From Burkholderiaceae bacterium (lineage in GTDB: Bacteria; Pseudomonadota; Gammaproteobacteria; Burkholderiales; Burkholderiaceae_D), in contig SCTK01000024.1 of assembly GCA_004298905.1 (NCBI GenBank), positions 1-64,000 of the forward strand: 64,000 bases of DNA, given 5' to 3'. The position numbers and the translations under genes are program-made. Below are positions 2,011 to 46,377 of this stretch, piece by piece. The notes under the pieces were generated by a model that had not been told where the DNA came from, made no database searches, and saw only the letters and a program-made list of their open reading frames with translations. Each line of letters starts with the position of its first letter. The first letter of the stretch is position 1.

Positions 2011-2916
2011 TCAGGAAACGTCCGCGCCCTTGATGAGGCAGGCACGGTTCGCGTCGATCGTCTTGACGCCGTACAGGCAGTCGATCGACACGACGTCCTG
2101 CTTCTTGTCCATGTCGTAGTCGTAGATCACACGCAGGCCGTAGCCCTTGTAGCCGGCGATGGCGGCGTTGGCCGCACCGCGCGGAAGCGCGAGCGGCCTG
2201 GTTGCGAGCGCGAACGCGGTCTTGTGGAACGTCACACCGACCTCAGTGGTGCTGTTGCCGGTGGTCTGCGCCGGGACGGTGATGTTGTTGGTTTCGAACG
2301 GATCGAACCCGAACAGCCGGGCACCGAGGCGCGCCTCCTGAAGGCCGAGCGTGTCGCCGCGCTCGTTGGCCTTCTGGAGGATGTCGGCCTTCATCCACTC
2401 CGCGCTCATCACGGGGCCGACGGCGGCGTAGCGCTGCGACGCGGGCACCTTGTTCTGAGTGAGCACCCGCCGGGCTGCGATCAGAGAGTTCGGGCTGGAC
2501 CACAGTTCGCCCGAGGTCGTGCCGATCTCGTGGGTGATGTCGTCGCGCAGCGCGAGCAGGTCACGGTCGATCTTCTGCGCGATGGCTTCCATGGCCGGCA
2601 CCAAGAACTGCTCCGAGAAATCCTCGACCTTGAGGGTCAATTCCTCGGCCGTCACCGCGAACGAAACGTCGGCGAAGTGGTTCAGGACCATCGGGACGCC
2701 CTGCTCCGTCGCGTCCTGCACGGTGATGCCGTCGGCGCGCACGTACTCCTGCGCCGTGAACGTCGGGGGCTTGCGGATCGTGATGGTGTCACCGACACGG
2801 CCGGCGAAATCGGCCTCGTAGTCGCGGTACACCAGCGACGCCATCACGCAGGTCTCGTACAGGGTCGCCAGCGCCGACTGCGCGATGACGCTGGGCGTCA
2901 ACAGGGTGTTACTCAT
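2011..2916 (-). CDS. Major capsid protein (P22 coat-like)
   Basis: 301 aa. The opening MSNTLLTPSVIAQSALATL, then YRDYEADFAGRVGDTITIRKP at about residues 30-50, and the mid-protein segment FAVTAEELTLKVEDFSEQFLVPAM fit the P22 gp5-like coat family, which has an HK97 fold. About 300 aa is short for P22 itself but normal for actinophage members. It follows the scaffold gene by 21 bp and precedes the decoration gene, the usual head order. It forms the icosahedral shell. Confidence 0.85.
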   Translation of the reverse strand: MSNTLLTPSVIAQSALATLYETCVMASLVYRDYEADFAGRVGDTITIRKPPTFTAQEYVRADGITVQDATEQGVPMVLNHFADVSFAVTAEELTLKVEDFSEQFLVPAMEAIAQKIDRDLLALRDDITHEIGTTSGELWSSPNSLIAARRVLTQNKVPASQRYAAVGPVMSAEWMKADILQKANERGDTLGLQEARLGARLFGFDPFETNNITVPAQTTGNSTTEVGVTFHKTAFALATRPLALPRGAANAAIAGYKGYGLRVIYDYDMDKKQDVVSIDCLYGVKTIDANRACLIKGADVS

Positions 2917-5255: not shown

Positions 5256-6494
5256 CTACTTTCGGCGTCGTGGGGTGCGTGGTGGTGGCGCCCACCCACC
5301 GTCGAGCGTTGCCTGGTCGGGTACGCCCAGCTCGGCGGCGAGGTCGTCGACCCGGCCGCGGGTCGGTACGTGCCCGGCGCCGATCTGCTCGCGGTAGCGG
5401 ATGCGTTGCAGGTCGTGCGCGGCGGTGTGCTCGCCGAGCGCCGTATCCCACGCCCGTACTTTCGCGGCCGCCACACGGCGGGCGGCGTCGGTGAGGGCGG
5501 CGGCTTCGCGTTCGCGCCAGGCGCGGATCCCGCGCTCCAGGTAGCGCTGCCGCTGCCGGGCGGCGTCGCCTTCGGGGTCGGGTTTCGCTGCGGCGAGCCG
5601 CGACACGCCGGGCCGGTACTCCCGCATGGTGTGGCGGCAGTTCGGGTGAAACAGCCCGGCGGCCATGGCGTCGGTCAGCGTGGCGGCGACCTCGACGGTG
5701 ACGGGCCGCCCGTCGCGGGCGTGCACTTCGGTTACGGTGCCGGCCGAACCGGTCAGGGCGAGGATTTTGCGCTCCCACGGGCGGCACATTTCGCATTCGC
5801 CGGCAACGTCGTCAACGGACACCAGCCGCACCCCATGGGCGGTGAACTCGTCGACCTGCCCGGTCAGTGCGGCCCGCAGCGCGGCGGTGCGGGTGGCCAT
5901 CTCCACATACGTGTGCAGGCGCCAACGGTGGCCGCGCACGTCGGTGAAGCCGGTTACGCCTTTGTCGGACAGGCGCGCCCACGCGGCTTGCGCGGCCTGC
6001 CTGCGCGACGCGGCGCCGGTGATGTGCCGGGCGGTCGCGCCGGCGATGGCCTGCCGGTACAGGCTCATGGCTTGCGGCAGGATCGCCGAGTGCACCGGCT
6101 CCAGCTCCCGCACGATCGCGTCGGCCAGGGCTTGCACGCTGCGGGCGCGGGCGGCGACAAGGTGCTCAGTGATCCGGGCGGGCGCTGCCAGGCCGGAGGC
6201 GGGGAACATGTGCTGCGCGAGTTCGGCGATGGCGTCGGCGCGGCCGGCCCGGTACGCGGCGGCGACCGTGGCGCGCAGATCCCGCGACCCGGTGGACACC
6301 AGGGCCGTCACGATCGCTTGCGCGGCTTGGCGCAGGGCCGACGTTTCGGCGAGCTTTTTGCGGGCCCAGTCGGACGCGTCGAGGCCGGTCGCGAGGCGGC
6401 GGGCGAGCATTCGCAGCAGCGCGGTTTCGGCTTCGCGGTAGATCGACGCGGCGGTGGCGGCGATGTCGTCGACGCGGTGGACGTCTACGGGCAC
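5256..6494 (-). CDS. Phage minor capsid protein 2 (MuF-type)
   Basis: 412 aa. The hallmark pair is GECEMCRPWERK at about residue 230 and GLFHPNCRHTMREYRPG at about residue 285. In phage minor capsid protein 2 these Cys/His residues surround the domain core. The N-terminal half is helical and the C-terminus basic (RTPRRRK). These proteins join the portal region and are often carried inside the head. Its start overlaps the end of the Ntn-hydrolase gene by 10 bp. Confidence 0.8.
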   Translation of the reverse strand: MPVDVHRVDDIAATAASIYREAETALLRMLARRLATGLDASDWARKKLAETSALRQAAQAIVTALVSTGSRDLRATVAAAYRAGRADAIAELAQHMFPASGLAAPARITEHLVAARARSVQALADAIVRELEPVHSAILPQAMSLYRQAIAGATARHITGAASRRQAAQAAWARLSDKGVTGFTDVRGHRWRLHTYVEMATRTAALRAALTGQVDEFTAHGVRLVSVDDVAGECEMCRPWERKILALTGSAGTVTEVHARDGRPVTVEVAATLTDAMAAGLFHPNCRHTMREYRPGVSRLAAAKPDPEGDAARQRQRYLERGIRAWREREAAALTDAARRVAAAKVRAWDTALGEHTAAHDLQRIRYREQIGAGHVPTRGRVDDLAAELGVPDQATLDGGWAPPPRTPRRRK

Positions 6495-7541: not shown

Positions 7542-7799
7542 TTACTTGGCTTTCCGGGCGGCCTTCTTGGTGCCCTTCGCGGCGAGCGCGGCCATGCCGG
7601 CGGCGCCGTACTTCTTACGCCCAGCCGTAGCAGCGATGGCGGCCGGGTTGCTCGCACCGGATGCGGCTGCGGACTTCGCGACTGCGGCGAAACCCGAGTA
7701 CGTGCCCGCCGCCTTAGCTGCCGTCACTTTCTTCGCCACGGTCGCCGCCGCGCTCGCCTTCTTCGCCGGCGCGGCTTTCTTCGGCGGTGTGCCCATCAT
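7542..7799 (-). CDS. Lys/Ala-rich histone H1-like basic protein
   Basis: 85 aa (84 if the second of two adjacent ATG codons is used). Nearly half Ala and a quarter Lys/Arg: repeated AAPAKKA-type stretches flank a short core (NPAAIAATAGRKKYGAAGM). The start overlaps the portal stop (ATGATG/TGA). The composition suggests a DNA-binding or head-internal protein that neutralises packaged DNA; that is inference from charge and position. Confidence 0.7.
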   Translation of the reverse strand: MMGTPPKKAAPAKKASAAATVAKKVTAAKAAGTYSGFAAVAKSAAASGASNPAAIAATAGRKKYGAAGMAALAAKGTKKAARKAK

Positions 7800-9454
7800 G
7801 CGCCCCCATTGGATACGGCGGCGGGCTGCTGCCCGTCGGCCGGATTGTTGTTGCCGAACGGGTCAGCGTTGGGGTCGCCGGGCAGTGTCTGCCCCGGCTG
7901 CGGCACGTGCGCCGCACCGACCTCGGCCTTGATCTCGATGACCTCACGGTCAATGTCCGCGTCGGACCAGTCCGGGTTGAGAATCCTCACCCGGGTGCGC
8001 GTTGACGCCGCCTCAGCGGCCAGCAGGAGCTGCAACGTGCGCGCCTGCGTCTCCGGGTCGGGCGCCACCCGGTCGGGCCAGATAGCCCGCGGCGGCACCT
8101 TCGGCGGTTCCTTGCCTTTGAACCAGTACGCGTTGACCTGCAACAAGGTCAGGGCGTTGCGGGCCATCGGCTGCCGCGCGTACCCGATTTTCCGGCCCCG
8201 GGTGCGGGTACTGGCCTGGTCGCGTGACACCACCTCGGTTGCGGTCGCCGCGCCGTGGCCCGAGGTGACCCGATCGGCCTCACCGAACGACTGCACGCTG
8301 TACCCGCAGCCCCGCACCGCCTGCCCGAGCAGCGCCGCGGTGGTGCGCTGGTGCTCATCCACCCGGATCTGAAACTGCACGTTGTGGATGGCGAGGCTGT
8401 TGGCGTCGGGGGCGGTCAGCGCGTCGACCGACTCGTACACCTCACGCTCAGGGTCGAACAGGGCGCCGCCGCCGCGCCCCATGGATTGCAGGTAGGAGCG
8501 GGGCACGACGAGTCGGCCTTTACCGAGGCGCAGGTCCCGCATCCATGAGGTCCACGCCTCGTCGAGGGCGTCGAGGATCGGTTCGACGCCGGCGTAGTCC
8601 GACCGGCCGATCGGCTGCCCCCGCAGTGCGCCACGGTTCGGGCGCATGTTCGGCAGGTACTGCACCGCCAGACCGGTCGCCCCGGTCACGACGGACTCTT
8701 TGTCGCGGGCGTCGACGAGCATCGCGAACGGCGCGGTCGCGTCGTGTTCCTCCAGCGGCAGGCGCTGCCCCAACAGGGCCTCATCCGTCGACGCGTACAG
8801 GCCGTGCAACACGCGGCCCGGCTCGTGGCGCTCCAGGTGCCGCCAATGGCGGCTGTCGGGCCGGTCCAGGTCACGCCAGAACGTGACCGCCGTGAGTACC
8901 CCGCCCCGAAACTCGGGGACCGCCGCGTCGGGCGGTATGACGTCCTGCAACGGGTGGTCGGCGATCGTCGGATCCCACCCGACGCGCAGGTACGCGCCGC
9001 CGTACGCGGCGGCGAGCTCGGCGGCCTCCAGCCACACACTGTGCGCCCCGGACCCGTCAATGATGTCGCCGAGCTGCTGCACCAGCGGGTCGTCGCCGGC
9101 GGCGGTGTCGTCGCTGAAACTGAACTGTGGCGGCTCACCGAACAGCAGGTCCGCAGACGTTTGGGCGATGTCCGCGGCGAGCGGCACGTGCAGTTTGTGC
9201 TGACGCACCGTGTTGGACAGTGGGGAGCTGCCCCAAAACCAGCGGGCGGCGGCCTGCCGCATCGACGTGAACACACCACCGGCGGGGGTGGGTTTCAGGT
9301 CGAGGCCGGGCATGGCCGTGGCCGCCGTTGCGGCGTACACGCGCCCCAACGCGTCCGGGTCACCGGAGTACCAGGCACCCCACGTGTCGTACGCCTTCAG
9401 CGCGGGCCGCACCGCCGGGGGTGGCCATTCAACGCGGCCGGTGGGTAGCGGCAT
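7796..9454 (-). CDS. Portal protein (SPP1 gp6-like)
   Basis: 552 aa, normal for portals. The N-terminal part has WFWGSSPLSNTVRQHKLHVPLAADIAQ followed by SADLLFGEPPQ. The middle has GRSDYAGVEPILDALDEAWTSWMRD, the characteristic stretch before the crown and stem domains of SPP1-type portals. The C-terminal 60 residues are acidic and Pro/Asn-rich. It forms the dodecameric DNA gate at one capsid vertex and docks the terminase. Confidence 0.85.
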   Translation of the reverse strand: MPLPTGRVEWPPPAVRPALKAYDTWGAWYSGDPDALGRVYAATAATAMPGLDLKPTPAGGVFTSMRQAAARWFWGSSPLSNTVRQHKLHVPLAADIAQTSADLLFGEPPQFSFSDDTAAGDDPLVQQLGDIIDGSGAHSVWLEAAELAAAYGGAYLRVGWDPTIADHPLQDVIPPDAAVPEFRGGVLTAVTFWRDLDRPDSRHWRHLERHEPGRVLHGLYASTDEALLGQRLPLEEHDATAPFAMLVDARDKESVVTGATGLAVQYLPNMRPNRGALRGQPIGRSDYAGVEPILDALDEAWTSWMRDLRLGKGRLVVPRSYLQSMGRGGGALFDPEREVYESVDALTAPDANSLAIHNVQFQIRVDEHQRTTAALLGQAVRGCGYSVQSFGEADRVTSGHGAATATEVVSRDQASTRTRGRKIGYARQPMARNALTLLQVNAYWFKGKEPPKVPPRAIWPDRVAPDPETQARTLQLLLAAEAASTRTRVRILNPDWSDADIDREVIEIKAEVGAAHVPQPGQTLPGDPNADPFGNNNPADGQQPAAVSNGGA

Positions 9455-10252: not shown

Positions 10253-10284
10253 TGTTTCCCCCGTTGGATGTGCGTGGTTGCGGT

Positions 10285-14833: not shown

Positions 14834-15414
14834 GGGGACGCCTCGACGACGGGCGGTGCGGTCTGCTCGGGGAGCTGCTCGGCGTGGTCGCGCGGCGGTT
14901 CGGGTGTTGGGTACCCGTCGTCAGCGTCCGGGTTGTCCAGGTCGAACGCGGCGGCGAGCCGGTCGACGAGCGACAGGGCCCCGGCGTTGCCGGCTTCCTT
15001 CGTGTCGAACCGGATCAGCGCCATGTGCTTGTCGACGGCGATACCCAGCGCCGTCATGGCCTGCCGCACCTCACCCAGCGGCGGCTCGTCATAGGTGACG
15101 GGGTGCACGTCGTCTTTCGTGGCGAGGTAGACCGTGTACGACTCGCGGGCCCGGGCGGCGAACCGGTCGGCCAGGTCCAGCATCGTCTCGGCGATCGACG
15201 CGCGGCGGGCCGCGAGGTCCACCACGCGCGCGCGGGTCGCGTTTTCGGTGCGTGACCGATCAAACGCGTTTGTCTTGCCGGCGGCGCGGATGATGTTGGT
15301 GACGCTGCCGGCGGATATTTGCAGGTCGCGGGCTATTTGGTTGCGGCTGACGCCTTGTTCGGCGAGGTCGAGGACGCGTTGTCGGGTGGCGTCGTCGATG
15401 CGGGGGCTGGACAT
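14830..15414 (-). CDS. terS: Terminase small subunit
   Basis: 194 aa. N-terminal helix-turn-helix (RQRVLDLAEQGVSRNQIARD, then SAGSVTNIIRAAG), a central helical oligomerisation region and an acidic Pro-rich tail. Directly upstream of the large terminase with a four-base overlap. It recognises the packaging site. First gene of the leftward late operon. Confidence 0.8.
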   Translation of the reverse strand: MSSPRIDDATRQRVLDLAEQGVSRNQIARDLQISAGSVTNIIRAAGKTNAFDRSRTENATRARVVDLAARRASIAETMLDLADRFAARARESYTVYLATKDDVHPVTYDEPPLGEVRQAMTALGIAVDKHMALIRFDTKEAGNAGALSLVDRLAAAFDLDNPDADDGYPTPEPPRDHAEQLPEQTAPPVVEASP

Positions 15415-20781: not shown

Positions 20782-22335
20782 TCACAGCATCCCCTTAGCG
20801 GTCGCCGATTGCGGGCTGCGGCGTTTGATCTCAGCCCGGTAGAACTTGACCGCGCCACCGTGGGCCCAGCCGAGGGCTTCCTCGACGTCCCAGATGTCGA
20901 CGCCCAGCTCCAGGAGCTGCTGCACGCGCCCGCGCCGCGTCGAGTGGATCGAAAACGTGCGCCAGTTCTTGAGGATCTTCTTACCGGACGCCAACCACGC
21001 GGCCTTAGCGACGAGACGCACCGCCCGGGTCAGGCCGGTCACGTCGGCCATGTACGCCAGCGTGTCGGGTGCGCCGCGCACGATGACCCCGGATTTGTGG
21101 ACCGGCCGGAAAATCGCACCGCCGGTGATGCCGTTCGCGGCGAGCCGGTCAACCCACCGTTCCATGGCGGCCACCCCGCAGTACCGCGACGGTTGCCCCG
21201 TGTGGGCGTCGATGTCTTCGTTGATGGTGCGTTTCTCTTCGTTCCGGTCGCCCCTCGTGGCTTTCGACTGGCTCAGGGTCAGCTCAATACCCCGCGCGGT
21301 CACCAGCTCGCCGTCGTCGTTGAGGTACTCCGTCTCGAATCGTTCAATGTCGGTGATGCGGTACCGGGCGAGGTCGGACGCGCGGCCGCCGGTGTAGAAA
21401 CATGCCAGCACCAGCGCGCGCAGCATGTCGACACGGGCCGGGGCGATCCACACCGGCCCGTCGTCGGTCACCTCGGCGTCGTCGGAATCCTTACCCTTAC
21501 GGGCTTTGCGGGCCTTGCGGTACGCAGCTACTTCCTCAGGCTCAACCGCCGGCATCGCGTCGAGCGCGTCGACCATTGCTCGCACGTCTTTGGGGTACGC
21601 GCGCGGCGCTTTCGTCTGCCGCCACCCGTCGTCTTTGAGCTGCGTGATGTACCCGCGGATCGCGTCGGAGAGCTTCACGCCGCCTTCCCATGGGATCGGC
21701 GGTTCGCCGAGGCCGTGGAACCATTTCATCGCGGAGAACCAGATCCACGCCGCGGACGGCGACGGCCGGTGCCCGGTGCACGGCTTGCCGTCGGCCTGCT
21801 TACGGCCGCTGCAACCGACGTGCACGGGCAGCAGCTCCCACGCGTCGAGCATGCGGATCATGCCGTTCTGCGGCGCGGGCATGATCGTCAACCCGTTCGC
21901 TTTGGCGAACTTCGTCCACCAGCCGAACGCGGCGAGGTACGCCCGCACCGTGTGGGGGCTTTTACCGCGCAGGATCAGCCGCTTCGCACTGTCCGGCAGC
22001 CAGTTGTCGATGACATGCTGCGGGCTGCCAGGCGGCGGGGGGCCATCGCCCCGGTACTGCTCGGGCAGGTACCGTACCGCGGACACGACCAGGGCGCCGC
22101 CCTCATCCTCCGTGGGTGCGGCGCTGGCGAGCACCATGTCGCGGCCGGGCGTCCGCTCGATCTGCCGGGCGAACACGATGCGGCGCACCCCGGCACGGTC
22201 CAGCCCGTACCGGGAGCACAGTTCGTCGAACGTGGCCCCGTCCTGCCACGCCTCGTGAACCGCCCGGTCCCGCTCATCGGTATCGGGGGAGTCGTCGACC
22301 ATCTCCGCGTCGATTACGTCGGCGTCAGTACCCAC
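20782..22335 (-). CDS. int: Tyrosine recombinase/integrase
   Basis: 517 aa from GTG 22335. Catalytic pieces: Arg in YTGGRASDLARYRITDIE, Lys region SKATRGDRNEEKRT, HSTRRG (His464, Arg467), WAH (His492) and FYRAEI (nucleophile Tyr499). A core-binding SAM-like domain covers about residues 110-220. An N-terminal extension (residues 25-60) carries a resolvase-like HTH. It integrates and excises the element. It is long for the family because of that extension. No excisionase is adjacent. Confidence 0.9.
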   Translation of the reverse strand: MGTDADVIDAEMVDDSPDTDERDRAVHEAWQDGATFDELCSRYGLDRAGVRRIVFARQIERTPGRDMVLASAAPTEDEGGALVVSAVRYLPEQYRGDGPPPPGSPQHVIDNWLPDSAKRLILRGKSPHTVRAYLAAFGWWTKFAKANGLTIMPAPQNGMIRMLDAWELLPVHVGCSGRKQADGKPCTGHRPSPSAAWIWFSAMKWFHGLGEPPIPWEGGVKLSDAIRGYITQLKDDGWRQTKAPRAYPKDVRAMVDALDAMPAVEPEEVAAYRKARKARKGKDSDDAEVTDDGPVWIAPARVDMLRALVLACFYTGGRASDLARYRITDIERFETEYLNDDGELVTARGIELTLSQSKATRGDRNEEKRTINEDIDAHTGQPSRYCGVAAMERWVDRLAANGITGGAIFRPVHKSGVIVRGAPDTLAYMADVTGLTRAVRLVAKAAWLASGKKILKNWRTFSIHSTRRGRVQQLLELGVDIWDVEEALGWAHGGAVKFYRAEIKRRSPQSATAKGML

Positions 22336-28755: not shown

Positions 28756-29483
28756 CCGACGAAACGCAGCCCGAGCAGGGCCAGGCGCCGGCGCCGGTGT
28801 TCGCAGCGCTTGGGGAGCTGCTGCGCCGGTACCCGTGGGCGCTGGCCGTGCTGGTGGTGTTGGCCGGGGCGGTGGGTGCGTGGGCGCCGCACACGGTGCC
28901 GGCCGAGTACAGCGCGACGGGGCATGTGCTGCTCGTGCCCGCCGCGGCGACGGCACACAACCCGTGGGCCGGGTCGGGTGTGCTCGCGTTGGGGTCGACG
29001 GTTGTGGCCACGCCCGACCCGGCTGCGTCGGGTGGTGACCGGTCGGTGGTGCTTTCGCTGTCGATGGTGGCGCCGCCGGCGGCGATGGTGGAGGTACGCG
29101 CGACGACCCGGGTGTCGGCCGAGGCGGCGGCCCGGGCGGTGGTGCGGGTGCGGGAATGGCTACTTGCGCAGGTGCTGCGGTTGCAGGCTGAGGCGTCCGT
29201 GACGGCGGCGGATCTGGTGCGGGCGCAACTCCCCGACGAGGTGGCGTCCCACCTGGACACGACGGGTGGTCAGCGGCAGCTCGCCGGTGTGGTGTCGGCG
29301 GTGGGTGTGCTGGTGGTGGGTGTGCTCGGGGTGGCGGGGTTGGACCGGCTGCGGGGGCGGTGGCGTGGTCTGCCGCGCCAGCGGACCCGGCGGCGCCGTG
29401 GTGGTGGTTTCGCTGCGGGTGGTGTGGTGCGGCAGCGTACCGGCGCCGCAGACGCGCCGACCGAGTTTCTCCCCCGCGTCTAG
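28752..29483 (+). CDS. Wzz/polysaccharide co-polymerase-like membrane protein
   Basis: 243 aa. N-terminal TM (ALAVLVVLAGAVGAWA), a ~130-residue extracellular domain, then a second TM (VVSAVGVLVVGVLGVAG) and an Arg-rich cytoplasmic tail: the topology of chain-length-determining proteins such as YveK/Wzz. Contains PAEYSATGHVLLVPAAA, the strand following TM1 in that family. It may alter cell-surface glycan of a lysogen; this is inference. Convergent with the exonuclease gene, overlapping by four bases. Confidence 0.55.
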   Translation: MTDETQPEQGQAPAPVFAALGELLRRYPWALAVLVVLAGAVGAWAPHTVPAEYSATGHVLLVPAAATAHNPWAGSGVLALGSTVVATPDPAASGGDRSVVLSLSMVAPPAAMVEVRATTRVSAEAAARAVVRVREWLLAQVLRLQAEASVTAADLVRAQLPDEVASHLDTTGGQRQLAGVVSAVGVLVVGVLGVAGLDRLRGRWRGLPRQRTRRRRGGGFAAGGVVRQRTGAADAPTEFLPRV

Positions 29484-30196
29484 AGCCGGTTCGTCCATCG
29501 GCTGCCCGGGCCCCGCGACACCTGGGCGGCAACGGGTGTGATGCCCGCGACTGGCATGTCGTGCACGACCGAGGCGGGTATCCGCCCGCTGCGGGCCTGC
29601 TCGTCGAGGCGGCGGAGCTGCCACGCGACGGTGCGGGCGTCGTCGATCGCCCGGTGCTTGACGCCCCTACCGACGGGCGGGTTGAGTAGCGGCACCCCGA
29701 GGTGTTCGGCGTACTGGCGTATCTCATTGGTGCGGTCCGGGATTGCGGCGGGTTTCTTCGCCATGGGGCCCCAACAGGTCCAGCACAAACACACGTGGTC
29801 GTACGCGCCGCAGTCGGCCCACAGCTCCAGCGACCCGTCGCCGGGGGTGTCGAGTAGGAACTTGGCGACCTCGGCGGCGATCTGCCTGCGTGGCTTGACG
29901 TACGGCTCGCGGCGGTCGATGTCGGTGCGGCGCTGCGACATGTACCGCTGTTCGCGGGTGAAGGTCGGCAGGTGTGGCAGTACGTTTTCGGCGAGCCACG
30001 GGCGCGACGTGAGGCGTTCGATGCTGATGTCGGCGTTGATCGCGTAGTACTCGACGTCGGGGCCCGTCGCGGTCGCTGGGGCGCTGCGGGGTGGGAGCGC
30101 GTCGACGCGGACGACGCCGATGGACACCAACTCGATTGAGTGTCCGTCCTCGACGAACTCCAGGTCGTAGGTGAGGCGCCGCGGTTTCGTGGTCAC
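29480..30196 (-). CDS. RNase AS-like 3'-5' exonuclease (DEDD superfamily)
   Basis: 238 aa from GTG 30196, leaderless-looking (TACCGT eight bases upstream). DEDD acidic residues: LTYDLEFVEDG (Asp11, Glu13), ELWADCGAYDHV, and a His/Asp pair in HRAIDDARTVAWQL. This matches the mycobacterial polyA-specific RNase AS (Rv2179c) family that trims RNA from the 3' end. It would act on host or phage RNA. Confidence 0.75.
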   Translation of the reverse strand: MTTKPRRLTYDLEFVEDGHSIELVSIGVVRVDALPPRSAPATATGPDVEYYAINADISIERLTSRPWLAENVLPHLPTFTREQRYMSQRRTDIDRREPYVKPRRQIAAEVAKFLLDTPGDGSLELWADCGAYDHVCLCWTCWGPMAKKPAAIPDRTNEIRQYAEHLGVPLLNPPVGRGVKHRAIDDARTVAWQLRRLDEQARSGRIPASVVHDMPVAGITPVAAQVSRGPGSRWTNRL

Positions 30197-33175: not shown

Positions 33176-33562
33176 TCAGGGCAGCAACTCCGTCATGGCG
33201 TGCGGGTCGATGTGGTCGACGCGGTGGCGCGGCGGGGAGCATTGCGCGCACCACAGGTGGCCGGGCTGGGCGCGGCAGGCCGGCAATGGCAGTCTCCCCC
33301 GCGGGTCGCATTGCGGGCAGGCGGCCGCACCAAGGGTGAGGATGGGCCGCCCGCACGGGCAGGTCGGCAGGGGCTGGCCGGTGGTGTCGTGGGCGACGCC
33401 GGCGCGGATGCGGCTGGCCTTGCCGGGTTTGCGGCGGCAGGCGGTGCGGCGTGGGCAGGCGGTCAGGCAGATGGTGCGGGCGAGGCGGTTACCGTCGTCG
33501 CCGGTGGTCCACCAGTCGGGCTGGCGTTGGCACAGTGTGGTTTCGGGTGTGGGTGTGGGCAT
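33176..33562 (-). CDS. WhiB-like regulator with added Zn ribbon (copy 2)
   Basis: 128 aa from ATG 33562 (GGGGG upstream). WhiB core: LCQRQPDWWTT (Cys11), then ICLTACPRRTACRR, where Cys32, Cys36 and Cys42 give CX3CX5C rather than the usual CX2CX5C. A second part with CPCGRP, ACPQCDPRG and LWCAQC is a zinc ribbon not normal for WhiB. First gene after the conserved promoter at 33621, so a candidate controller of the element. Confidence 0.7.
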   Translation of the reverse strand: MPTPTPETTLCQRQPDWWTTGDDGNRLARTICLTACPRRTACRRKPGKASRIRAGVAHDTTGQPLPTCPCGRPILTLGAAACPQCDPRGRLPLPACRAQPGHLWCAQCSPPRHRVDHIDPHAMTELLP

Positions 33563-33620
33563 GGTGTGCCCCCGATGCGTCTCGTAGTGCCCGGCGGTCA
33601 GCGGTGCCGCCAGACCCGCA

Positions 33621-33660
33621 ACGTTACCCACTCGCCAGTAATTGCGCAACCATTTGTCAC
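33621..33660 (-). promoter_or_regulatory. Conserved element promoter, copy 2 (leftward)
   Basis: Minus strand: GTGACAAATGGTTGCGC, -35 TTGCGC, 17-bp spacer, -10 TAACGT. It overlaps the stop of the FtsK-like gene. Between it and the WhiB start is a GGCGG/CCGCC leader hairpin and a GAGAC motif. Confidence 0.85.
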
Positions 33661-36287
33661 GCACTTTTACGTTTGTATTCGGGCGCCCAGTAGCGGCGCT
33701 TGCGGGCGGCGTTGTTGTGGGCAAGTTCGGCGCGGCCGCCGGTGCGGGCGCCCGTGGCCGCCTCGGTGAGCCACCGGTACACGGTGGCCCGGTCCGGGGC
33801 CGCGTCGCCGTATTTGGCTTTGAGTAGTGCGCGCACCTCGGCGGTGTCGAGGCCGACCCATTTCGCGGCACGCACGACGGCGATCACGTGCCGGTACATG
33901 GCGTCGCGTTCGGGGGTGAGTACCTCGGGCGGGGCGGGGCGGGCGTCGGTGGCGGTGTCGTCGGCGGCCTGCTCGTCAGCGTCGGCGTCGAGCAGGGCGC
34001 GCCGGTAGGCGATTACCTCCGGGTCGTCGTCGATAGTCATGGTCAGGGCTGCGGCGAACGCGTTGTCGACCACGGCCAGCCCCGCAGGCATAGCCGCTGG
34101 GGAGTTGGGGCGGGTCGCGCGGCGGCGGGTCTGCTGCGGCTGCGCGCCGATCATGTGGTGCGGCCGGTACATGGTTTGCCAGCGCTGCGCCCACCCGAAA
34201 TGCGCGTCGCCGGGGCACCCGTCGCCGCCGTTGCCGTCGCTCGCGCGGCAGGTCGCGCACACGTCGAGGTGCTCGCGGCGTTCGCCCGGGTCCTGCGATA
34301 GCGGGCCGTCGCAGGCCGGGCCCCCGTCGCCGCCGGATGCTTGGCAGACGAGGCAGAACTTCCAGTGCGCGTCGCGGGCGCCGGCGTCCATCGCTTCGGC
34401 GGTGCCGTCGTCGAGGTCGGGTGGTATGCACCAGCGGCGGGCGCTGATCGCCGGCACGTCGTCGGCGGGTAGGCGCATGACTTTGCCCGCCATGGCGCGG
34501 TTACTGCCCACGCCGACACCGACGATCGCGCCGCGCATCGCGTCGCCCTCCAGTGCGGCGAGGATCCGGGCGTGCGGTAGCTGCGTCTGGTTGCCGAACA
34601 TGTACGACGCCTCTTGCACGGGGATGCCGCCGCCGCCGAGGCCGTAGCGGTTTTTCGGCTGCGACAGGAAGTCGCCGCCGCCGCTCATCGTGACGGTGCC
34701 GCGCTGGGTGAACACGGCGAAGATGACGCCTTCGCTGCGGCCGAGGGTGACGCCCTGGGTGAATAGGTCATTGAAGTCCGCGGCCTGGGGGCCGCCGGGT
34801 GGCAGGTCGGCGTGCTGGCCGACGAGGGTCGGCAGCTCGTCGACGAACACGAAAACGCCGGGCGCTTTGGGTGTGGCCTCGATTTTCTCGGCGCCACCGA
34901 AACTGACACTGGCCCGGTAGCGGATGCCGGCGATGACCCCGGCGAGTAGGCAGTAGATGCCCATCGGTTCGATGGCGGCGGCGAGTAGCGGCGGGCGTTC
35001 GATTTTGCCGGTCTCGCTGACACCGTACGGGTCATCCGCCGCCTCGTCCCATGGTTGCAGCCACGGTTTGACGAGGCGGCCTTTCGGGTCGATGACGATG
35101 GTGCAGGCGTTTGGCATGCGTGTGGTCTGCGCGATCTGGACGTGCAGGAAGTTGGATTTGCCGCTGCCTGTTGGGGCGAACGTGACCTGGTGCGCTTCGG
35201 CCATGTCGATCTCAAAGTCGGTGGAATCCATGTACTTGCCGACGTTGATCGGGTCGTGGAACGACAAGGGAGTTTCGTCGTCGACGTACGGCAGGTCGGC
35301 CGTCAGAACGTCACTCAGGTCGATGTAGACGGTGAATGTTGCGGATTCTTCGCGGCCGTCGGTGGTGCGGTCGCGTTCTAGGCGCATCGCGCCGACTGGC
35401 CACCGCGCAAACTGCTCAATGTCGGGGACGTTGGCGAGGATCTTGTCGTAGTTGACGCCCTGCTGGGGTAGCCGCCACCGCAGCGCCAGGACTTTGCCGG
35501 CGTCGACGCGGCCTAGGAAACGCAGGCCGGTGATGTCGAACCGTCGCCATAGTCGCCACAGCCGCGCGGCGTCCGGGTCAGCCGGCGGGGTTTCCCGCAC
35601 CCCGGCACTGTCCACATTGGAGGCGGCGAACATGCGGCGGATCAGGTTTTCCTCATGGGTGATCTGCATGGTGCGGGTGTGTGGCCACGCCGCGAAACCG
35701 ACGACGACGGAGGCGACCCACAGCACCCACAGGGGCCATGCGGTGATGCTGGCGGCGATGCTCCAGGCGACGAAGCCACCGCCGGCACCGAAAATCGCCG
35801 CCATGTACCAGCGGGTTGTCGCGGCGAAATACTCGCCCATGGTCAGCAGCAGCCCCACCACCAGGGCCAGGATGAGCACCCCCACGCCGATCAGTGCCTT
35901 GACGCCAGCGCCGGGCACGTGGGCGTGGGTGTTGCTCACGGCCAGCGCGCAGGCCGGGGCGGCGGCCGCCGCGTACGCCCACACGGGGCGGGCCTTAAAC
36001 CACTTCACCGCCACGGCCGCGGCGGGGGCGGCCACGGCAAGCGCCGCTAACGCCAGCACCCACGCGGGGGCTGCCGCGGTGCGGGGGATGCGCCACGCGG
36101 CGACGTGCGCGCCGATGCCGACGGTCGCGGCGGCGAGCAGCCCCGTGACCGGTGCGAAGTAGCTGCGTAGCCGCATCGGTTTGCCCGCCCACGTCGGCAG
36201 GCCGTTGATGTGGCGCGGCAGGCGCTGCGGTGTGACCGGCACCAGCTCGGCGTGCGGCGGCTGCGGCGTTGTGGTCACGGTTCTCAT
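33657..36287 (-). CDS. FtsK/TraB-type membrane DNA-translocase ATPase
   Basis: 876 aa. ATG 36287 or GTG 36278. About six TM segments in residues 40-205, then an FtsK motor: Walker A FAPTGSGKSN at about residue 370, Walker B GVFVFVDELP, and LGRSEGVIFAVFTQRGT typical of FtsK. The C-terminus (residues 780-840) is a winged helix, with a cysteine-rich segment before it. In actinomycete plasmids and integrative elements this layout belongs to TraB/TraSA, which alone moves double-stranded DNA between cells. It neighbours Spd-like genes. Confidence 0.8.
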   Translation of the reverse strand: MRTVTTTPQPPHAELVPVTPQRLPRHINGLPTWAGKPMRLRSYFAPVTGLLAAATVGIGAHVAAWRIPRTAAAPAWVLALAALAVAAPAAAVAVKWFKARPVWAYAAAAAPACALAVSNTHAHVPGAGVKALIGVGVLILALVVGLLLTMGEYFAATTRWYMAAIFGAGGGFVAWSIAASITAWPLWVLWVASVVVGFAAWPHTRTMQITHEENLIRRMFAASNVDSAGVRETPPADPDAARLWRLWRRFDITGLRFLGRVDAGKVLALRWRLPQQGVNYDKILANVPDIEQFARWPVGAMRLERDRTTDGREESATFTVYIDLSDVLTADLPYVDDETPLSFHDPINVGKYMDSTDFEIDMAEAHQVTFAPTGSGKSNFLHVQIAQTTRMPNACTIVIDPKGRLVKPWLQPWDEAADDPYGVSETGKIERPPLLAAAIEPMGIYCLLAGVIAGIRYRASVSFGGAEKIEATPKAPGVFVFVDELPTLVGQHADLPPGGPQAADFNDLFTQGVTLGRSEGVIFAVFTQRGTVTMSGGGDFLSQPKNRYGLGGGGIPVQEASYMFGNQTQLPHARILAALEGDAMRGAIVGVGVGSNRAMAGKVMRLPADDVPAISARRWCIPPDLDDGTAEAMDAGARDAHWKFCLVCQASGGDGGPACDGPLSQDPGERREHLDVCATCRASDGNGGDGCPGDAHFGWAQRWQTMYRPHHMIGAQPQQTRRRATRPNSPAAMPAGLAVVDNAFAAALTMTIDDDPEVIAYRRALLDADADEQAADDTATDARPAPPEVLTPERDAMYRHVIAVVRAAKWVGLDTAEVRALLKAKYGDAAPDRATVYRWLTEAATGARTGGRAELAHNNAARKRRYWAPEYKRKSA

Positions 36288-36308
36288 TCCCCCCGGATCG
36301 GTGATGGG

Positions 36309-36659
36309 TTAGCGGACGTTGAGGGCGGCCTCGTCGGGGCGCGGGTTCTCGACGCGCTCCAGGTGATGCGCATTGAACTTGCGCCACTGCCGATACAGCA
36401 CACGGGTCTGGTTCGCCACGGCGTAGTACTGGCGGCCCACGCCGTGGATGAAGTTGGCGACTGACCGCGGCACGAACGACCGGTGGCTGGCCTGTTCCGC
36501 CATGTGCCACCGCGCCTGCGCGGCCGCTTCGATCACGCCAGCCCATGAGGCGAGCAGTTTGTCGATGAGTACCTGCGCCTCGGCGTCGGGGAGCTGCACC
36601 GCGCCGAGCGTGCGGTCGAGGTCGTCGCAGATGCCTTGTACGAGCGGGTGATATGCCAT
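36309..36659 (-). CDS. Small helical protein beside the ATPase
   Basis: 116 aa. All helical: ICDDLDRTLGAVQLP, IDKLLASWAGVIEAAAQARWH, YYAVANQTRVLYRQWRKFN. Lies between the Gly-rich protein and the ATPase, 22 bp from the latter. Likely an accessory of this module; no recognised family. Confidence 0.6.
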   Translation of the reverse strand: MAYHPLVQGICDDLDRTLGAVQLPDAEAQVLIDKLLASWAGVIEAAAQARWHMAEQASHRSFVPRSVANFIHGVGRQYYAVANQTRVLYRQWRKFNAHHLERVENPRPDEAALNVR

Positions 36660-36702
36660 TGCCGTCTGGCCTTTCTCGGGTATCTGGTCAGGGTCGCGGG
36701 GG

Positions 36703-38652
36703 TTATCTGACGACGTTGAATCGGCGTTCGCCGGGGGCGGGCTGCGCGGCGCGGGCGAGATCAGCCTCCAGCGCGGCGCGGGCGGCGCGTACCACGTCGT
36801 GTTCGCTGGCGTGGGCGATGGCGATCAGCCCGGCGGCGACCTGCCGCATGTACGCGTTGACGCGCTTGTCGACGGGGGTGGAGCTGTCGAACATCGCGGC
36901 GTGGCGGGTCATGATCTCGGCGATTTTCCGGTCGATCCCGCCGAGGCTTTCCAGTAGCCACACGTAGTCGACCTGCGCTTCGGTGTCGGGGCGCTGGTAG
37001 CGGGCGAGGCGGCCCAGCGCGTCGATGGCGAGCTGCGCCTCGCGTAGCGGCACGACCGCGCCGCGGGTGTTGGGGCGTTGGGCGAGTCGTGTGGCCATGG
37101 CGGTGCCTTTCGTGGGTCGTACTGCCGGTGCGGGGCGGTTGACAGTTGCGGCGCCGGCGGTTGGCGCTGGGGCCGGTTTTGGTGCGGGTTTGGCGGCGGG
37201 TGGGGTCTGCGGCGCCGACTTCGCCGCGGGCGCCGGCGGGGCGGGTGTCGGCTGCTGCGCGGCGGGGGGTGGGGTGCCGCCGAACCGGCGGGCCAGCGAC
37301 GCGTGCAGCGCCGCCATGCCGGCGTGGCGGCCTTGGGTGCGCCACGTGCGCCACCACGCGGGGCGGCGTTTGCTGGCCTGGGCGATGCGCTGGCCGGTCT
37401 TGCGTGTGCCTTGGGCGATGCGCCGCCCCGCCCACCGCGCCGGCGTGGCCGCGCGGGTCGCGGCTTTGCGGGCGATGCGGGCGTACAGGGCGCGCGCGTC
37501 GTCGCGGCGTTGGGTGCGCGCTGCGGCGCGGACGTCGCGTCGGGTTAGGCGGCGCTGGTGGCGGTCGGCGCGGCGCTGGTGCTGCTGCCAGTACCGCCAC
37601 TCTTTGCGGTCCAGCGGTGTACCCTTGCGTACCTTGGCGCCGATCTGCGCGGCCCACTTGTTGTGCGCGGGTGCGCGTAGGGCGGCGCGTTGGGCGCGCC
37701 GGTCGGCCCGGTATGCGGTGGCGCGGGCCCCGAACGGCAGCGCCGCCCGGCCCAACTTGGTGCCGTAGTCGGGGGTCTTGCCGCCACCGCGACCACCGCC
37801 ACCGCTGGTGCCGCCTTTGCCCTTGCTCGCCCTGCCGGTCTTGCCGGTGCCGCTCTTGCCGCCGCCCGAGCTGGACCCGCCGCCGCCACCGCCCCGGCCG
37901 ATCAGTTTGCCGAGGCCGAGCGTCGGTAGCCCCCGCCCGCCCGCACCACCACCGGCGGCGTTGCCGGCCTTCCCTGCGTTGGCTGGTTTGCCTACTCCCC
38001 CACGCCCAGCCCCGCCTGCGCGCGGCGTGCTGGCGTTGCGGCCGCCTCGGGGAGCTGCGCCGGCCGGGCCTGCACCCGCGCCTTTACCCTTGCCGCCGCC
38101 GGTGGTGGCCTTGCCGAGCATCTTGCCGAGGTTCGGCAGGTGCGGCCCCCGCCCCGCGGCCGGGCCGCCGTTGGCGCCCCGCCGAGGTGGTGCCGCCGTG
38201 CCGGTGCCGCTGGTCTTGCCGGGCCCTCGGCCCGCCGTACCCGTGCCCTTGCTGGTCGGGGTGGCGCCGCCGGCGGCGGGTGCGGGGGTGCGGGGTTGGC
38301 GCTGCTGCGGGATGATCCCGGCCCGGCGGTCCCGGGCGGCGCGGCGGCTGGCCACGGCGGTACCGCCACCGGCCGCGGCGAGGGCGCCGACGGCGATACC
38401 GGCGACGGGCCCGCCGACCAGGAACGCCAGGAACGTGCTGACGACGGCGAGGCCGCCCACGCCGACCGCGACGTGCGCTGTGGTCGTGCCGTCGCTGTTC
38501 TCCCCCGACGCGGCGGCGACGTACCCGCCGCCGGTGGTGTCGTCGGGGGTGCGGTCGACGACGTAGTGGTGCTGGGCGCCGTCGGGCGACACGGTGACCG
38601 CGGCCGGTTCGTCGTCGGCATCGTCGTCGAGGTGCGCCCACGGGTCGCGCAT
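36703..38652 (-). CDS. Large Gly-rich basic membrane-linked protein
   Basis: 649 aa. Residues 58-105 hold a TM pair (AVGVGGLAVVSTFLAFLVGG, VAGIAVGALAAAGGG). Residues 130-320 are Gly/Ala/Lys-rich low complexity. Residues 330-460 are very basic (RRDVRAAARTQRR) and helical, then a Pro/Ala linker and a helical C-terminal domain. It could bind DNA and bridge to the membrane. Conjugation-type partner by position only. Confidence 0.6.
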   Translation of the reverse strand: MRDPWAHLDDDADDEPAAVTVSPDGAQHHYVVDRTPDDTTGGGYVAAASGENSDGTTTAHVAVGVGGLAVVSTFLAFLVGGPVAGIAVGALAAAGGGTAVASRRAARDRRAGIIPQQRQPRTPAPAAGGATPTSKGTGTAGRGPGKTSGTGTAAPPRRGANGGPAAGRGPHLPNLGKMLGKATTGGGKGKGAGAGPAGAAPRGGRNASTPRAGGAGRGGVGKPANAGKAGNAAGGGAGGRGLPTLGLGKLIGRGGGGGGSSSGGGKSGTGKTGRASKGKGGTSGGGGRGGGKTPDYGTKLGRAALPFGARATAYRADRRAQRAALRAPAHNKWAAQIGAKVRKGTPLDRKEWRYWQQHQRRADRHQRRLTRRDVRAAARTQRRDDARALYARIARKAATRAATPARWAGRRIAQGTRKTGQRIAQASKRRPAWWRTWRTQGRHAGMAALHASLARRFGGTPPPAAQQPTPAPPAPAAKSAPQTPPAAKPAPKPAPAPTAGAATVNRPAPAVRPTKGTAMATRLAQRPNTRGAVVPLREAQLAIDALGRLARYQRPDTEAQVDYVWLLESLGGIDRKIAEIMTRHAAMFDSSTPVDKRVNAYMRQVAAGLIAIAHASEHDVVRAARAALEADLARAAQPAPGERRFNVVR

Positions 38653-38654
38653 GG

Positions 38655-40127
38655 TTACGCCTCTACCCCGAGGCGGTCAGCCTCGATCACGGCGCGGATC
38701 TTGATGAGGGTTTCTTTGCCGGTCCGGGCGTCGGCCGGGGCGAGCGCACCGCCGTCGACGGCGGCGAGCATCGCCGCCTTGATCTCGTCGGACCTGATCG
38801 GGCTGGTGCGGTCTTTCCACGCGCCGGGCTGCTCGTCGGGTTTGTCGAGGTGGAGTTGCACTGCCTCGATCTGGACGGCGTACTGCTCGCGCAGCGCCTC
38901 GACGTCGTAGCTCGCGCCGGCGGGGGCTGGGCTGACCGGGGCCGGGGGTCGGGGTAGCTGACCGGGCCGACCGGGGCCGACTGGGCGCCTGACCGGGGCC
39001 GACCGGTAATGCCGACCCGCGCTGACCGGTCGGCCCGGCCGGGGCTGACCGGGGTAGCTGACCGGGCCTGACCCCGCGTGGACCGGGTTGGCGAGGTCGG
39101 CGGCCCACTGACCGACCGGCGGCTCTGACCCGTCGAGCGGGTCGGCTGACTCGTCGGCCCATGCGCGGCCGTTCACCGCGTCGGGGCTCGTCACCGTGTC
39201 GAGGCGGTACAGGGCGTCGAGCTGGGTGCGGATCTCGGCCTGCGCGTCGTCGTCGAGGTACGCCTGCGCGGCGAGTTTGCACCGGTTGAGGTGGGCGAAC
39301 CGCCCGCGGCGGCGGCGCTTGTTCACGGCAGGGGTCATGTGGGCGCGGTACGCGGCGCGGATGATCCGCTGAATGTGGCGGGCGCGGGCCAGCTCGTCGA
39401 CGCCGAGGCGTTTCGGGTCGGCCAGGCGCAGCCACACGGCGATGCGGCGGGGGGTGAGGCGCCACCCGACGCGTTCGCGGTGCCGGGCGAGGTTGATGGT
39501 GCGCGCCTCGGACGCGATGGACTTTTCGACCGCCCACGCGGCGGACACGGCGGCGACGAGGCGGGCGAGTCCGGTGGCGAAGCCGACGACGGTGCCGTGG
39601 GAGGCGACCGCGGAGTCGATCGCGGCCATGGCGCCGGACAGTGCGGCGAAGACCCACACGGCGAAGCCGTTGCCGTCGAACGGCCATTCGGCGTCGGGGT
39701 CGCTGCGGCGGCTGGCGCGTTTCTCGCCCGCTTCGGCGGCGGCGATTAGTAGCCGGTAGGTGCGGGAGCGGATCGCGCATCCGAGCATGAGAGTTTCGAG
39801 GTAGCCGCAGAACATGGCGCGGATGACCGGGTCGGTGATGCCGAACCAGTCGCCGAAAACGTTCCACGATCCGGTGAGTACGACGCCGGTGGCGAGGACG
39901 GCACCGACGAGCGTGACCACCTTGTCGAGGCGCTGACCGCCGGGGGCGACCGGGCGGCCGGTCGGGGCCTGACCGGCGGCGGCGAGTCGGGCGGTCAGGG
40001 CCCGGTTGCGGCGGCCGGTCAGCCGCAGGGTCAGCACGCCGGTCAGGGCGGCGACCACGATGGCCGCGGCGACGGTCAGCCAGCCCGACCCGGCGCGGGT
40101 CAGGTCGTTGACCTGGGGAAACGTCAT
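38655..40127 (-). CDS. Multi-TM protein, possibly Spd-like
   Basis: 490 aa from ATG 40127 (GAGGTGA upstream). TM helices near residues 14-35, 65-85, 100-120 and 160-205, then a basic cytoplasmic part (RHRERVGWRLTPRRIAVWLRL). The C-terminal third is Pro/Gly-rich with many PVS repeats, encoded by the CTGACC repeat DNA. Its layout recalls SpdB2-type spread proteins of Streptomyces conjugative plasmids, but I cannot confirm homology. Confidence 0.5.
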   Translation of the reverse strand: MTFPQVNDLTRAGSGWLTVAAAIVVAALTGVLTLRLTGRRNRALTARLAAAGQAPTGRPVAPGGQRLDKVVTLVGAVLATGVVLTGSWNVFGDWFGITDPVIRAMFCGYLETLMLGCAIRSRTYRLLIAAAEAGEKRASRRSDPDAEWPFDGNGFAVWVFAALSGAMAAIDSAVASHGTVVGFATGLARLVAAVSAAWAVEKSIASEARTINLARHRERVGWRLTPRRIAVWLRLADPKRLGVDELARARHIQRIIRAAYRAHMTPAVNKRRRRGRFAHLNRCKLAAQAYLDDDAQAEIRTQLDALYRLDTVTSPDAVNGRAWADESADPLDGSEPPVGQWAADLANPVHAGSGPVSYPGQPRPGRPVSAGRHYRSAPVRRPVGPGRPGQLPRPPAPVSPAPAGASYDVEALREQYAVQIEAVQLHLDKPDEQPGAWKDRTSPIRSDEIKAAMLAAVDGGALAPADARTGKETLIKIRAVIEADRLGVEA

Positions 40128-40290
40128 CGGGTCACCTCGCCGGTCAACGGTCGGGTCAGGGGGCTGGTCGGTGCGGCGGTGGTCGGGTCGGGCACGCGGT
40201 CACCTCTGCGGTCAGCGGGTCGGTCAGCGCCCGGTCGGCCCGTCCGGTCAGCCCGCCGGTCGGGCGGGTCGGTCGGTGCGGGTCGGGTGT
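38930..40290. repeat. Dense CTGACC/GGTCAG (GACCGG) repeat region; possible clt locus
   Basis: Roughly two dozen copies of CTGACC or GGTCAG in 1.4 kb, against about one expected per 2 kb per strand. GACCGGGG occurs four times and GACCGGGC twice between 38930 and 39140; GGTCAGCG is repeated at 40211-40230. Streptomyces TraB proteins recognise clusters of 8-bp GACC-type repeats (TRS) in the clt locus. Proximity to the TraB-like gene makes this a candidate transfer site. Confidence 0.5.
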
Positions 40291-40656: not shown

Positions 40657-40800
40657 GGTTGTCGCATGGTTGTCGCACGGGGTTGGTTGTCGCACGGTTG
40701 TCGCGCGATTATGCGACTAAAGGGGGGTGTCTGCGCGTGGCCGCGCTGGACACCCCCCGGGTGCGACTAACGCCCGCACCGTGCGACAACGCGACTAACC
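40657..40800. repeat. Symmetrical cluster of eight GTTGTCGCAC-type repeats around a perfect hairpin
   Basis: Four direct copies of GGTTGTCGCAY: 40657-40667, 40668-40678, 40685-40695, 40696-40706. Four inverted copies (ATGCGACTAA 40711-40720; GTGCGACTAA 40761-40770; GTGCGACAAC 40781-40790; GCGACTAACC 40791-40800). The centre holds a perfect 10-bp stem, GGGGGGTGTC (40722-40731) with GACACCCCCC (40749-40758). No ORF crosses it. Candidate origin, centromere or operator array. Confidence 0.8.
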
Positions 40801-44806: not shown

Positions 44807-45172
44807 GAGAGTGCCCCGTCGCCGCGTCCACGCCGCGGCAGGCGGGGCATATGGGTTGGCCGCCGTCGCCGTACCGGTGGTGCGGCTGGCGGCAGCGCAT
44901 GCACGGGCCGACCTGGTGCGCGGGTACGCCGAGGCGCTGCGCGACAACCTCCGTGGGGCACTGGTGTCGCCCGTACCAGTAGCCGGGCCCGGCGGGTGGG
45001 TGGTGCCGGTCGGGCAGGTGTAGGTCCAGCCGCCGCCGCTGGTGCGGGCGGCGAACACATCGCCGGCGCCTACCGGGTCAGGGTCGACGGTGACGGGCCG
45101 CCCGCCGGCGGTGGTTACGTGGGTGACGGTTTGCCCACATGGTTCGCAGGTGGCCTTTTCGGTGGTGTTCAC
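44783..45172 (-). CDS. Small Zn-site protein
   Basis: 129 aa from GTG 45172 (GTGA overlap with the initiator stop). CEPCGQTVTHV and TCPTGTTHPPG, then a basic Arg/Ala-rich tail. Function unknown; coupled to the replication gene. Confidence 0.5.
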   Translation of the reverse strand: MNTTEKATCEPCGQTVTHVTTAGGRPVTVDPDPVGAGDVFAARTSGGGWTYTCPTGTTHPPGPATGTGDTSAPRRLSRSASAYPRTRSARACAAASRTTGTATAANPYAPPAAAWTRRRGTLRRKWCIT

Positions 45173-46377
45173 GACGCGCGCCGCTGCTGGGCGACCAGCA
45201 CCCGGCCTTCGCCTGGGCGGGGGTCTGACGGTGGTGGGGTGAGCGTCAGGGTTTTACCGGCGTCGGTGGCGGCGGCGAGCTGGCGGGCGTGGGCGTCGGG
45301 GCAGCAGTGCGGGCAGGCCAGGGCACAGTCCTTGCCGTCGATGAACCCGAGGACCAGCCCGTTTCGGCAGTGCGGGCAGTGTCCGCGCGGCTGCTGCGAC
45401 GGCACCACGCGCGGTGCGCGTGGTGGCGGCGGTGGGGGTAGATCGTCGAGCCGTGACAGCAGCACCGCGCCGGGGTCGTTGGCGTCGTCGAGGGGCCGTG
45501 ACAGGGCGTCGGTGAGGTCGTCGGGTGTCCACCCGGCGAGCAGCTCGCGTGTCACCGCGGCGGTCAGTTTCGCGGTGGTACGCCGGCCGGGGCGGCGAGT
45601 GTGGTGCAGGTGCGTGACCCGGTACACCTCGGCGAGGACCCCCGCCGCCACGTCTGGCGGTGGCGCGCCGGGGGGTGTATCTGTTTCGGGAGCCACCTCC
45701 ACCTCCACCCCATCGGCCTCGACCGGTTCGGCGCTCGCGCTGTCGGCGGGGGGTAGGGGGGGTGGTGGTGTTCTTTTCGTCTTATTCACTTCGTCTTGTT
45801 CCCCCCCCGATTTCGGGGTGATTGTTCCCCCTTTTTCGGGGTTACTTGTACCCCCAAATTCGGGGGTACTGGCGGGGTCGTCTCCTGTTACCCCGATTTC
45901 GGGGGTACTGGCGTTGACCTGCGCTTTCTTCGCCGCCCGCCGCCGGTCGCGGGTCACTTTCGCGGCGTGCTTGCGTTCGGTGATCGCGGGCCGGTGCAGC
46001 TTGTACCAGTCGCCGAGGGTCGTCGGGCCGGTGTAGTCGTTCGGGGGCAGTTCGTGCACGGTGTAGACGTTGCGGCGCGGCATGTCCTCGTGGCTGATGT
46101 CGATAGCGCCTATGTCCTCCAGCTCACGTAGCCATGGCGTGCAGGCGTCGCCTTTCGCCCGGCCCATGAGCGCGGCGAGGGCGTCCTTGCCGGGCCAGAC
46201 AATCGAGTCGCCGCGGAGCTGGTTGACGTGCATCGCGAGTTTGACCCACAAGCTGTGCGCCTGCGGGGAGATGCCCGACAGTGCCACCCAGTCCATCGCC
46301 GGCGTCATCGGTAGTCGCCGCCTGCCGTGGCGGATCTCAGTGTCTACCGGTGGCTGTGTGCTGTTGCGGCGGGTCAC
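45169..46377 (-). CDS. Replication initiator-like HTH protein
   Basis: 402 aa from GTG 46377; ATG 46308 (MTPAMDWVAL) is the alternative. Residues 40-85 hold a WPGKDALAALMGRAKGDACTP-type helix-turn-helix common in phage and plasmid replication proteins. The middle (residues about 158-191) repeats TPExGGT four times; the DNA there forms iterons. The C-terminal part has a Zn ribbon, CPHCRNGLV with CPHCCPDAH. Likely origin-binding initiator and helicase-loader type. Downstream genes are coupled. Confidence 0.65.
   Translation of the reverse strand: MTRRNSTQPPVDTEIRHGRRRLPMTPAMDWVALSGISPQAHSLWVKLAMHVNQLRGDSIVWPGKDALAALMGRAKGDACTPWLRELEDIGAIDISHEDMPRRNVYTVHELPPNDYTGPTTLGDWYKLHRPAITERKHAAKVTRDRRRAAKKAQVNASTPEIGVTGDDPASTPEFGGTSNPEKGGTITPKSGGEQDEVNKTKRTPPPPLPPADSASAEPVEADGVEVEVAPETDTPPGAPPPDVAAGVLAEVYRVTHLHHTRRPGRRTTAKLTAAVTRELLAGWTPDDLTDALSRPLDDANDPGAVLLSRLDDLPPPPPPRAPRVVPSQQPRGHCPHCRNGLVLGFIDGKDCALACPHCCPDAHARQLAAATDAGKTLTLTPPPSDPRPGEGRVLVAQQRRAS
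45805..45905. repeat. Four iteron-like repeats inside the replication gene; candidate origin
   Basis: CCCCGATTTCGGGG (45805-45818), CCCCCTTTTTCGGGG (45827-45841), CCCCCAAATTCGGGGG (45851-45866) and CCCCGATTTCGGGGG (45891-45905). Each is a short palindromic AT-core unit; they code the repeated TPExGGT peptides. An origin within the initiator gene is a familiar arrangement (lambda O). Confidence 0.7.

Follow-up and report, generated by a model that had tools for sequence, protein, structure and literature searches.

A putative double-stranded DNA-spread operon in a probable actinobacterial phage genome binned with a Burkholderiales assembly

The window analyzed here comprises the first 64,000 nucleotides of contig SCTK01000024.1 (assembly GCA_004298905.1) and carries, on the minus strand at 33657-40127, a four-gene operon transcribed in the order S, M, a 116-aa gene and F. 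Our preferred interpretation, which we regard as reasonably probable, is that this block is a dsDNA-spread operon of an actinobacterial phage, in which the FtsK-fold motor F would pump double-stranded DNA together with membrane partners. S, M and F represent a highly divergent member of a module found in phage-plasmids and phages, here called S-M-F, and not a TraB-Spd system of the kind that an earlier note on this DNA had proposed.

Phage genes of the element

The phage genes of the window include a structural module on the minus strand. It consists of the small (14830-15414) and large (TerL, 13499-14833) terminase subunits, which as a pair match the Pfam Terminase_3/6N/6C models; a portal protein (7796..9454) of the SPP1_portal family; a minor capsid protein 2, or MuF-like protein (5256..6494); and a P22-like major capsid coat protein (MCP, 2011..2916). 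These proteins resemble those of the Hiyaavirus phage Galactica, with identities of 52% for TerL, 45% for the portal, 36% for the MuF-like protein (to Galactica gp4) and 65% for the MCP. The Pfam matches and the similarity to Galactica bear out the earlier statement that terminase, portal and capsid genes share the window with the FtsK block. Between the terminase and the portal, genes for a papain-like protease domain and an N6/N4 DNA methylase occupy 9518-11082, and a gene for an Rv2179c-like 3'-5' exoribonuclease / RNase H lies at 29480-30196. Tail genes, also syntenic with those of Hiyaavirus phages, are found on the contig beyond the window, and the contig further encodes a RecE-like exonuclease and RusA.

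Two additional minus-strand genes were identified in the window. A tyrosine integrase-like protein (20782..22335) is assigned to phrog_1, with PF00589 just under the cut-off, and an O-like replication initiator (45169..46308) contains 24-bp iterons within its gene (2.8 copies, 45804-45870), a region that is the probable origin. The scans made detected no ParA/ParB alongside this integrase and initiator, and those window genes that were compared with Pfam include no GntR/Kor-type regulator. The element is probably an actinobacterial phage of temperate type. A search for its integration site in the bin returned, as best near match, 32 bp at 91% inside the integrase gene, which we judged to be due to chance.

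The sequence TGACAAATGGTTG occurs in eight exact copies, at 7059, 33647, 42434, 50422, 53400, 54243, 58280 and 61077, when only 0.34 copies would be expected even with two mismatches allowed. The copies sit in a larger conserved element of ~46-60 bp upstream of genes on both strands, and probably serve as operators for a repressor at early promoters; the putative transfer operon has none of the eight upstream of it.

Source contig and likely host

The contig measures 88,156 bp, and its ends overlap by exactly 100 bp; it therefore represents a circular genome of 88,056 bp, although this circularity is also compatible with a permuted virion genome. Its last 4 kb, outside the window, contain repeats of 190-420 bp that are 77-83% identical (84674-85377 and 87708-88156).

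The composition of the contig departs from that of its bin. The 16S sequence of the bin is Burkholderiales-like (about 93% to Cupriavidus), and its GC content is 57.9% in the 12 contigs sampled, compared with 70.1% for the phage contig. Tetranucleotide correlation reaches 0.93 within the bin itself and only 0.50 between contig and bin, compared with 0.77 between the contig and pZL12 and 0.74 with one Streptomyces phage-plasmid; with Hiyaavirus it is only 0.39-0.49. Because of these 16S, GC and tetranucleotide data, we infer that the contig was probably mis-binned into, or contaminates, the Burkholderiales assembly, and that its host is probably an actinobacterium and not the Burkholderiales bacterium of the assembly. 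F and TraB were not found in the relatives and class of the bin, but since these relatives are Burkholderiales, this negative result is uninformative.

Anatomy of the operon

All four reading frames of the operon are intact, and codon statistics support each of them as a gene. The earlier note had located three of these correctly and left the 116-aa gene unnamed. To assess the assignments independently of the window, profiles for F, M and S were built without it and then compared with the full set of contig ORFs. The F profile selected the ORF at 33660-36308 (E 4e-47), and the M profile selected that at 36706-38676 (E 1.6e-12), followed by the 116-aa gene (E 8e-7); the S profile selected none. 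Because window-free profiles single them out among all the ORFs of the contig, the identification of F, M and the 116-aa gene is beyond chance.

F (33657..36287, minus strand) is an 876-aa FtsK/TraB-like DNA translocase. It carries a Walker A motif, APTGSGKS, at residues 371-378 and a Walker B motif, VFVFVDE, at about 478-484, and it scores above the Pfam cut-off for DUF87/HerA. In the AlphaFold model, the motor core reaches a pLDDT of ~85-90, for a whole-chain mean of 56, and C-terminal helices at 792-845 reach ~73-86; the last ~50 residues are conserved, helical and winged-helix-like. A PDB search by sequence gave no match; by fold, the model is best matched by 6t8b, an FtsK motor (E 1.8e-11), and by 6o1w, which is TcpA, a coupling protein of conjugation. 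The FtsK motor and winged-helix tail first read from the letters are thus borne out by the Walker motifs, the modeled core and these folds. Of the roughly six transmembrane (TM) segments claimed for the protein, hydropathy places five, with low confidence, in the N-terminal region, whereas the sixth peak (434-452) falls within the motor.

M (36703..38652, minus strand) is a 649-aa protein rich in Ala, Gly and Arg (20, 16 and 12 percent), with two TM segments near residues 61-101 and a conserved C-terminal domain, and corresponds well to the glycine-rich basic membrane protein described earlier. The 116-aa protein (36309..36659, minus strand) is a paralogue of this C-terminal domain, matching the M C-terminal profile built without the window at E 1.5e-7.

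S (38655..40127, minus strand) comprises 490 aa and has about five TM segments by hydropathy. It occupies the slot held in related operons by DUF2637 or other polytopic proteins, yet profile comparison with SpdB, DUF2637 and other S proteins gave no match, so that its identification as DUF2637 or SpdB is unsupported. The quality of its AlphaFold model (pLDDT 47) does not permit a comparison of folds. S is multi-TM, as had been observed, and Spd-like by position and topology only. A period-10 tandem repeat within this gene region (38960-39073) was considered as a clt site and rejected as low-complexity sequence coding for Pro, Gly and Ala.

Family placement of F

Profile-profile alignment with hhalign relates the F family to TraB at 99.2% (E 2e-19, 332 columns), the match beginning about 130 residues ahead of Walker A, and to chromosomal FtsK slightly more weakly, at 98.6% (E 8e-16). 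In the tree, F sequences form their own clade with support of 99/97, one aberrant row falling outside it, and the link between this clade and TraB is unsupported (39/39). The NCBIfam model plasmid_TraB (NF041214) does not match the window F. On its sequence, F therefore belongs to a clade separate from chromosomal FtsK as well as from classical TraB. In view of the negative TraB family test, we do not file the operon as a TraB-Spd system, and the TraB/TraSA membership first assigned to it does not hold. Neither are its closest homologues host FtsK proteins, and no phage ejection ATPase emerged as a relative, two outcomes that had been named as grounds for abandoning a transfer role.

A single-protein scan of viral and genome collections detected no close homologues of F, and the F alignment is too divergent for pattern scans. 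Searches with tblastn recovered distant relatives only: circular Streptomyces plasmids of ~86-99 kb, Streptomonospora phiM2, Frankia pFQ12 and, among phages, FtsK-like genes of Hiyaavirus members and of Tomas.

The Tra/TraB proteins of Streptomyces rolling-circle plasmids, such as pIJ101 Tra, nonetheless share with F an FtsK-fold motor and a C-terminal helix-turn-helix, and the profile similarity spans the motor and the region preceding it. In contrast to the window, the partners in TraB systems are SpdA and SpdB, in the gene order tra-spdA-spdB instead of S-M-F.

Recurrence of the S-M-F unit

The profile work revealed a recurrent unit in which a polytopic protein is followed by M and then by F. 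In 33 of the 36 related loci fetched, an overlapping set whose members are not all independent, M is the gene immediately upstream of F; in 25 of the 36, a terminase lies downstream of F within the fetched stretch, and in many elements this distance is 2-8 kb. A polytopic protein with three or more hydrophobic segments is found further upstream in most loci scanned. In several of the ~86-99-kb Streptomyces circular plasmids, terminase and capsid genes adjoin F, which marks them as phage-plasmids. The window fits this pZL12-type module: its F is homologous to the clade, an M homologue lies upstream with the small paralogue between the two, a polytopic protein precedes M, and the carrier is a circular element bearing terminase and capsid genes.

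pZL12 itself (Streptomyces phage ZL12, NC_013420) is a circular element of ~90 kb that shares with the window the S-M-F order (gp073-gp072-gp071) and an operon adjoining phage head genes. Unlike the window, where the scans made found neither, it has ParA/ParB and a GntR regulator. The two F proteins align over 94 residues only (BLAST E 2.6), and the link between them is made through profiles. In the literature pZL12 is described as conjugative by means of a major tra gene and two neighbours, and these three genes are presumably gp071-073. The idea of a conjugation-like module in a phage consequently finds a precedent in this plasmid-phage, even though the family names given to the module stand only in part.

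The M-F pair also occurs in Frankia plasmid pFQ12 and in integrated elements of S. niger, S. violens and S. diacarni. These resemble the window in having a polytopic protein upstream of the pair and differ from it in that no terminase was found nearby. The pair sits beside an integrase in S. niger and S. diacarni (loci L031 and L033), and a search of the genomes of these two for the phage-plasmid type of terminase found none.

The Hiyaavirus phages Galactica, Hiyaa, Keanu and Spocter, which are isolated plaque-forming phages, have a structural module syntenic with that of the window (with the identities given above) and carry S, M and an FtsK-like F in the same order; in Galactica these are genes 96, 98 and 99. 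Hiyaa also has a small M paralogue (gene 101; match E 5e-18) just before F (gene 102), as in the window. The F proteins, however, are only 24-26% identical to that of the window, and Galactica has neither an annotated integrase nor an annotated partition gene. Ten structural proteins of Galactica have a BLAST counterpart in the contig; of the 16 non-structural ones that were tested, F alone does. Thus, the combination of particle genes with such a block, previously considered unusual, is carried by pZL12, by many catalogued phage-plasmids and by isolated Hiyaavirus phages.

Two further observations concern individual phages. Hiyaa gene 100 (33528-34856 in locus L090) was probably annotated on the wrong strand, since the opposite strand there holds an open frame with a match to M. 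In Saccharomonospora phage PIS 136 (33971-37784 in locus L106), the FtsK-like gene is split over two frames upstream of the terminase.

Candidate recognition sites

Upstream of the operon, at 40657-40798, five copies of TTGTCGC and three of TTAGTCGC flank a GGGGGGTGTC/GACACCCCCC hairpin, and the TTAGTCGC copies are found nowhere else in the window. This cluster may represent a cis-acting clt/TRS-like site. The paper that describes pZL12 as conjugative presents clt sites as variable short repeats, which in pWTY27 lie right next to tra.

In L031-L034, pFQ12 and phiM2, a cluster of short repeats immediately follows F, a placement expected of clt sites, with the repeats TACCCACT in S. niger, TGACGCAA in pFQ12 and CCCGTGCC in phiM2. 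Clusters of 8-bp repeats follow the F stop codon at 12222-12344 in L031, 12219-12341 in L032, 12211-12323 in L033, 12208-12322 in L034, 6940-7076 in L006 and 6272-6439 in L007. The repeats differ between elements, and each cluster could be the cognate recognition site of its own F. The cluster of the window sits 5' of the operon and not 3' of F. Because most Streptomyces phage-plasmids show no repeat cluster after F, this line of evidence is suggestive only.

Possible roles of the operon

In the mechanism that we propose, F would act as a membrane-anchored FtsK-fold motor, probably a hexameric ring, whose C-terminal winged helix would bind repeated motifs on its own genome, with 40657-40798 as the candidate site. 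At septa or where cells touch, the motor would pump double-stranded DNA through the envelope in unprocessed form, while S, M and the small M paralogue would serve as membrane partners forming or opening the passage. The phage genome would thereby be carried to other cells, as by Streptomyces TraB and, presumably, by pZL12. The lack of a plasmid_TraB match and of a supported grouping with TraB, the absence of Spd homology in S and the 5' position of the repeat cluster count against this interpretation, as does the retention of the operon in Hiyaavirus. Since neither an integrase nor a partition gene is annotated in Hiyaavirus, the operon can be retained without a plasmid stage; in these phages the pump may be used during lytic growth, for example in spread through the mycelium, or may itself have a lytic role.

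Such a role, in which the motor would serve the lytic or virion cycle within the infected cell through concatemer handling ahead of packaging, DNA uptake after ejection or displacement of host DNA, seems to us unlikely. It would agree with the Hiyaavirus data, including the finding that F is the sole non-structural protein shared by Galactica and the contig, with the position of F upstream of the terminase in many elements, and with phage Tomas, which has a lone FtsK-like gene. However, the M-F pair persists in pFQ12 and in integrated elements where, as far as seen, there is nothing to package, and the multi-TM partners and the transfer data reported for pZL12 suit transport across the envelope better. 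A translocase for segregation or dimer resolution of an episomal prophage, comparable to FtsK with XerCD, is quite improbable: chromosomal FtsK is nearly as close to F as TraB is, and a tyrosine recombinase is encoded at 20782-22335, yet F accompanies M and the polytopic S and not the integrase, pZL12 has a separate ParA/ParB, and Hiyaavirus has no annotated plasmid stage. That the operon is a passenger no longer working in this element is very improbable. F, M and S are indeed very divergent, S beyond recognition, and the element lacks the repeat cluster that some relatives have 3' of F, but the four intact frames show clear codon bias, and F retains its Walker motifs and its winged helix. 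A dsDNA-spread module remains the most likely reading, given the gene anatomy, the motor fold, the conserved synteny between M and F, and the presence of the operon in pZL12, in integrated elements without a terminase found nearby and in Hiyaavirus without an annotated integrase.

Implications

We consider it possible, though doubtful, that a TraB-like dsDNA operon is a standing part of many actinobacterial phages, among them the plaque-forming Hiyaavirus relatives that lack an annotated integrase, spreading their genomes through septa and hyphal contacts in the course of infection, also without virions. Because some carriers of the operon are isolated phages forming plaques on laboratory Streptomyces, the question of spread is directly testable. 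If the module works, such phages would have two routes of spread, by particles and by cell-to-cell DNA pumping, which, if true, would change models of host range, immunity and gene flow in actinobacterial phages.
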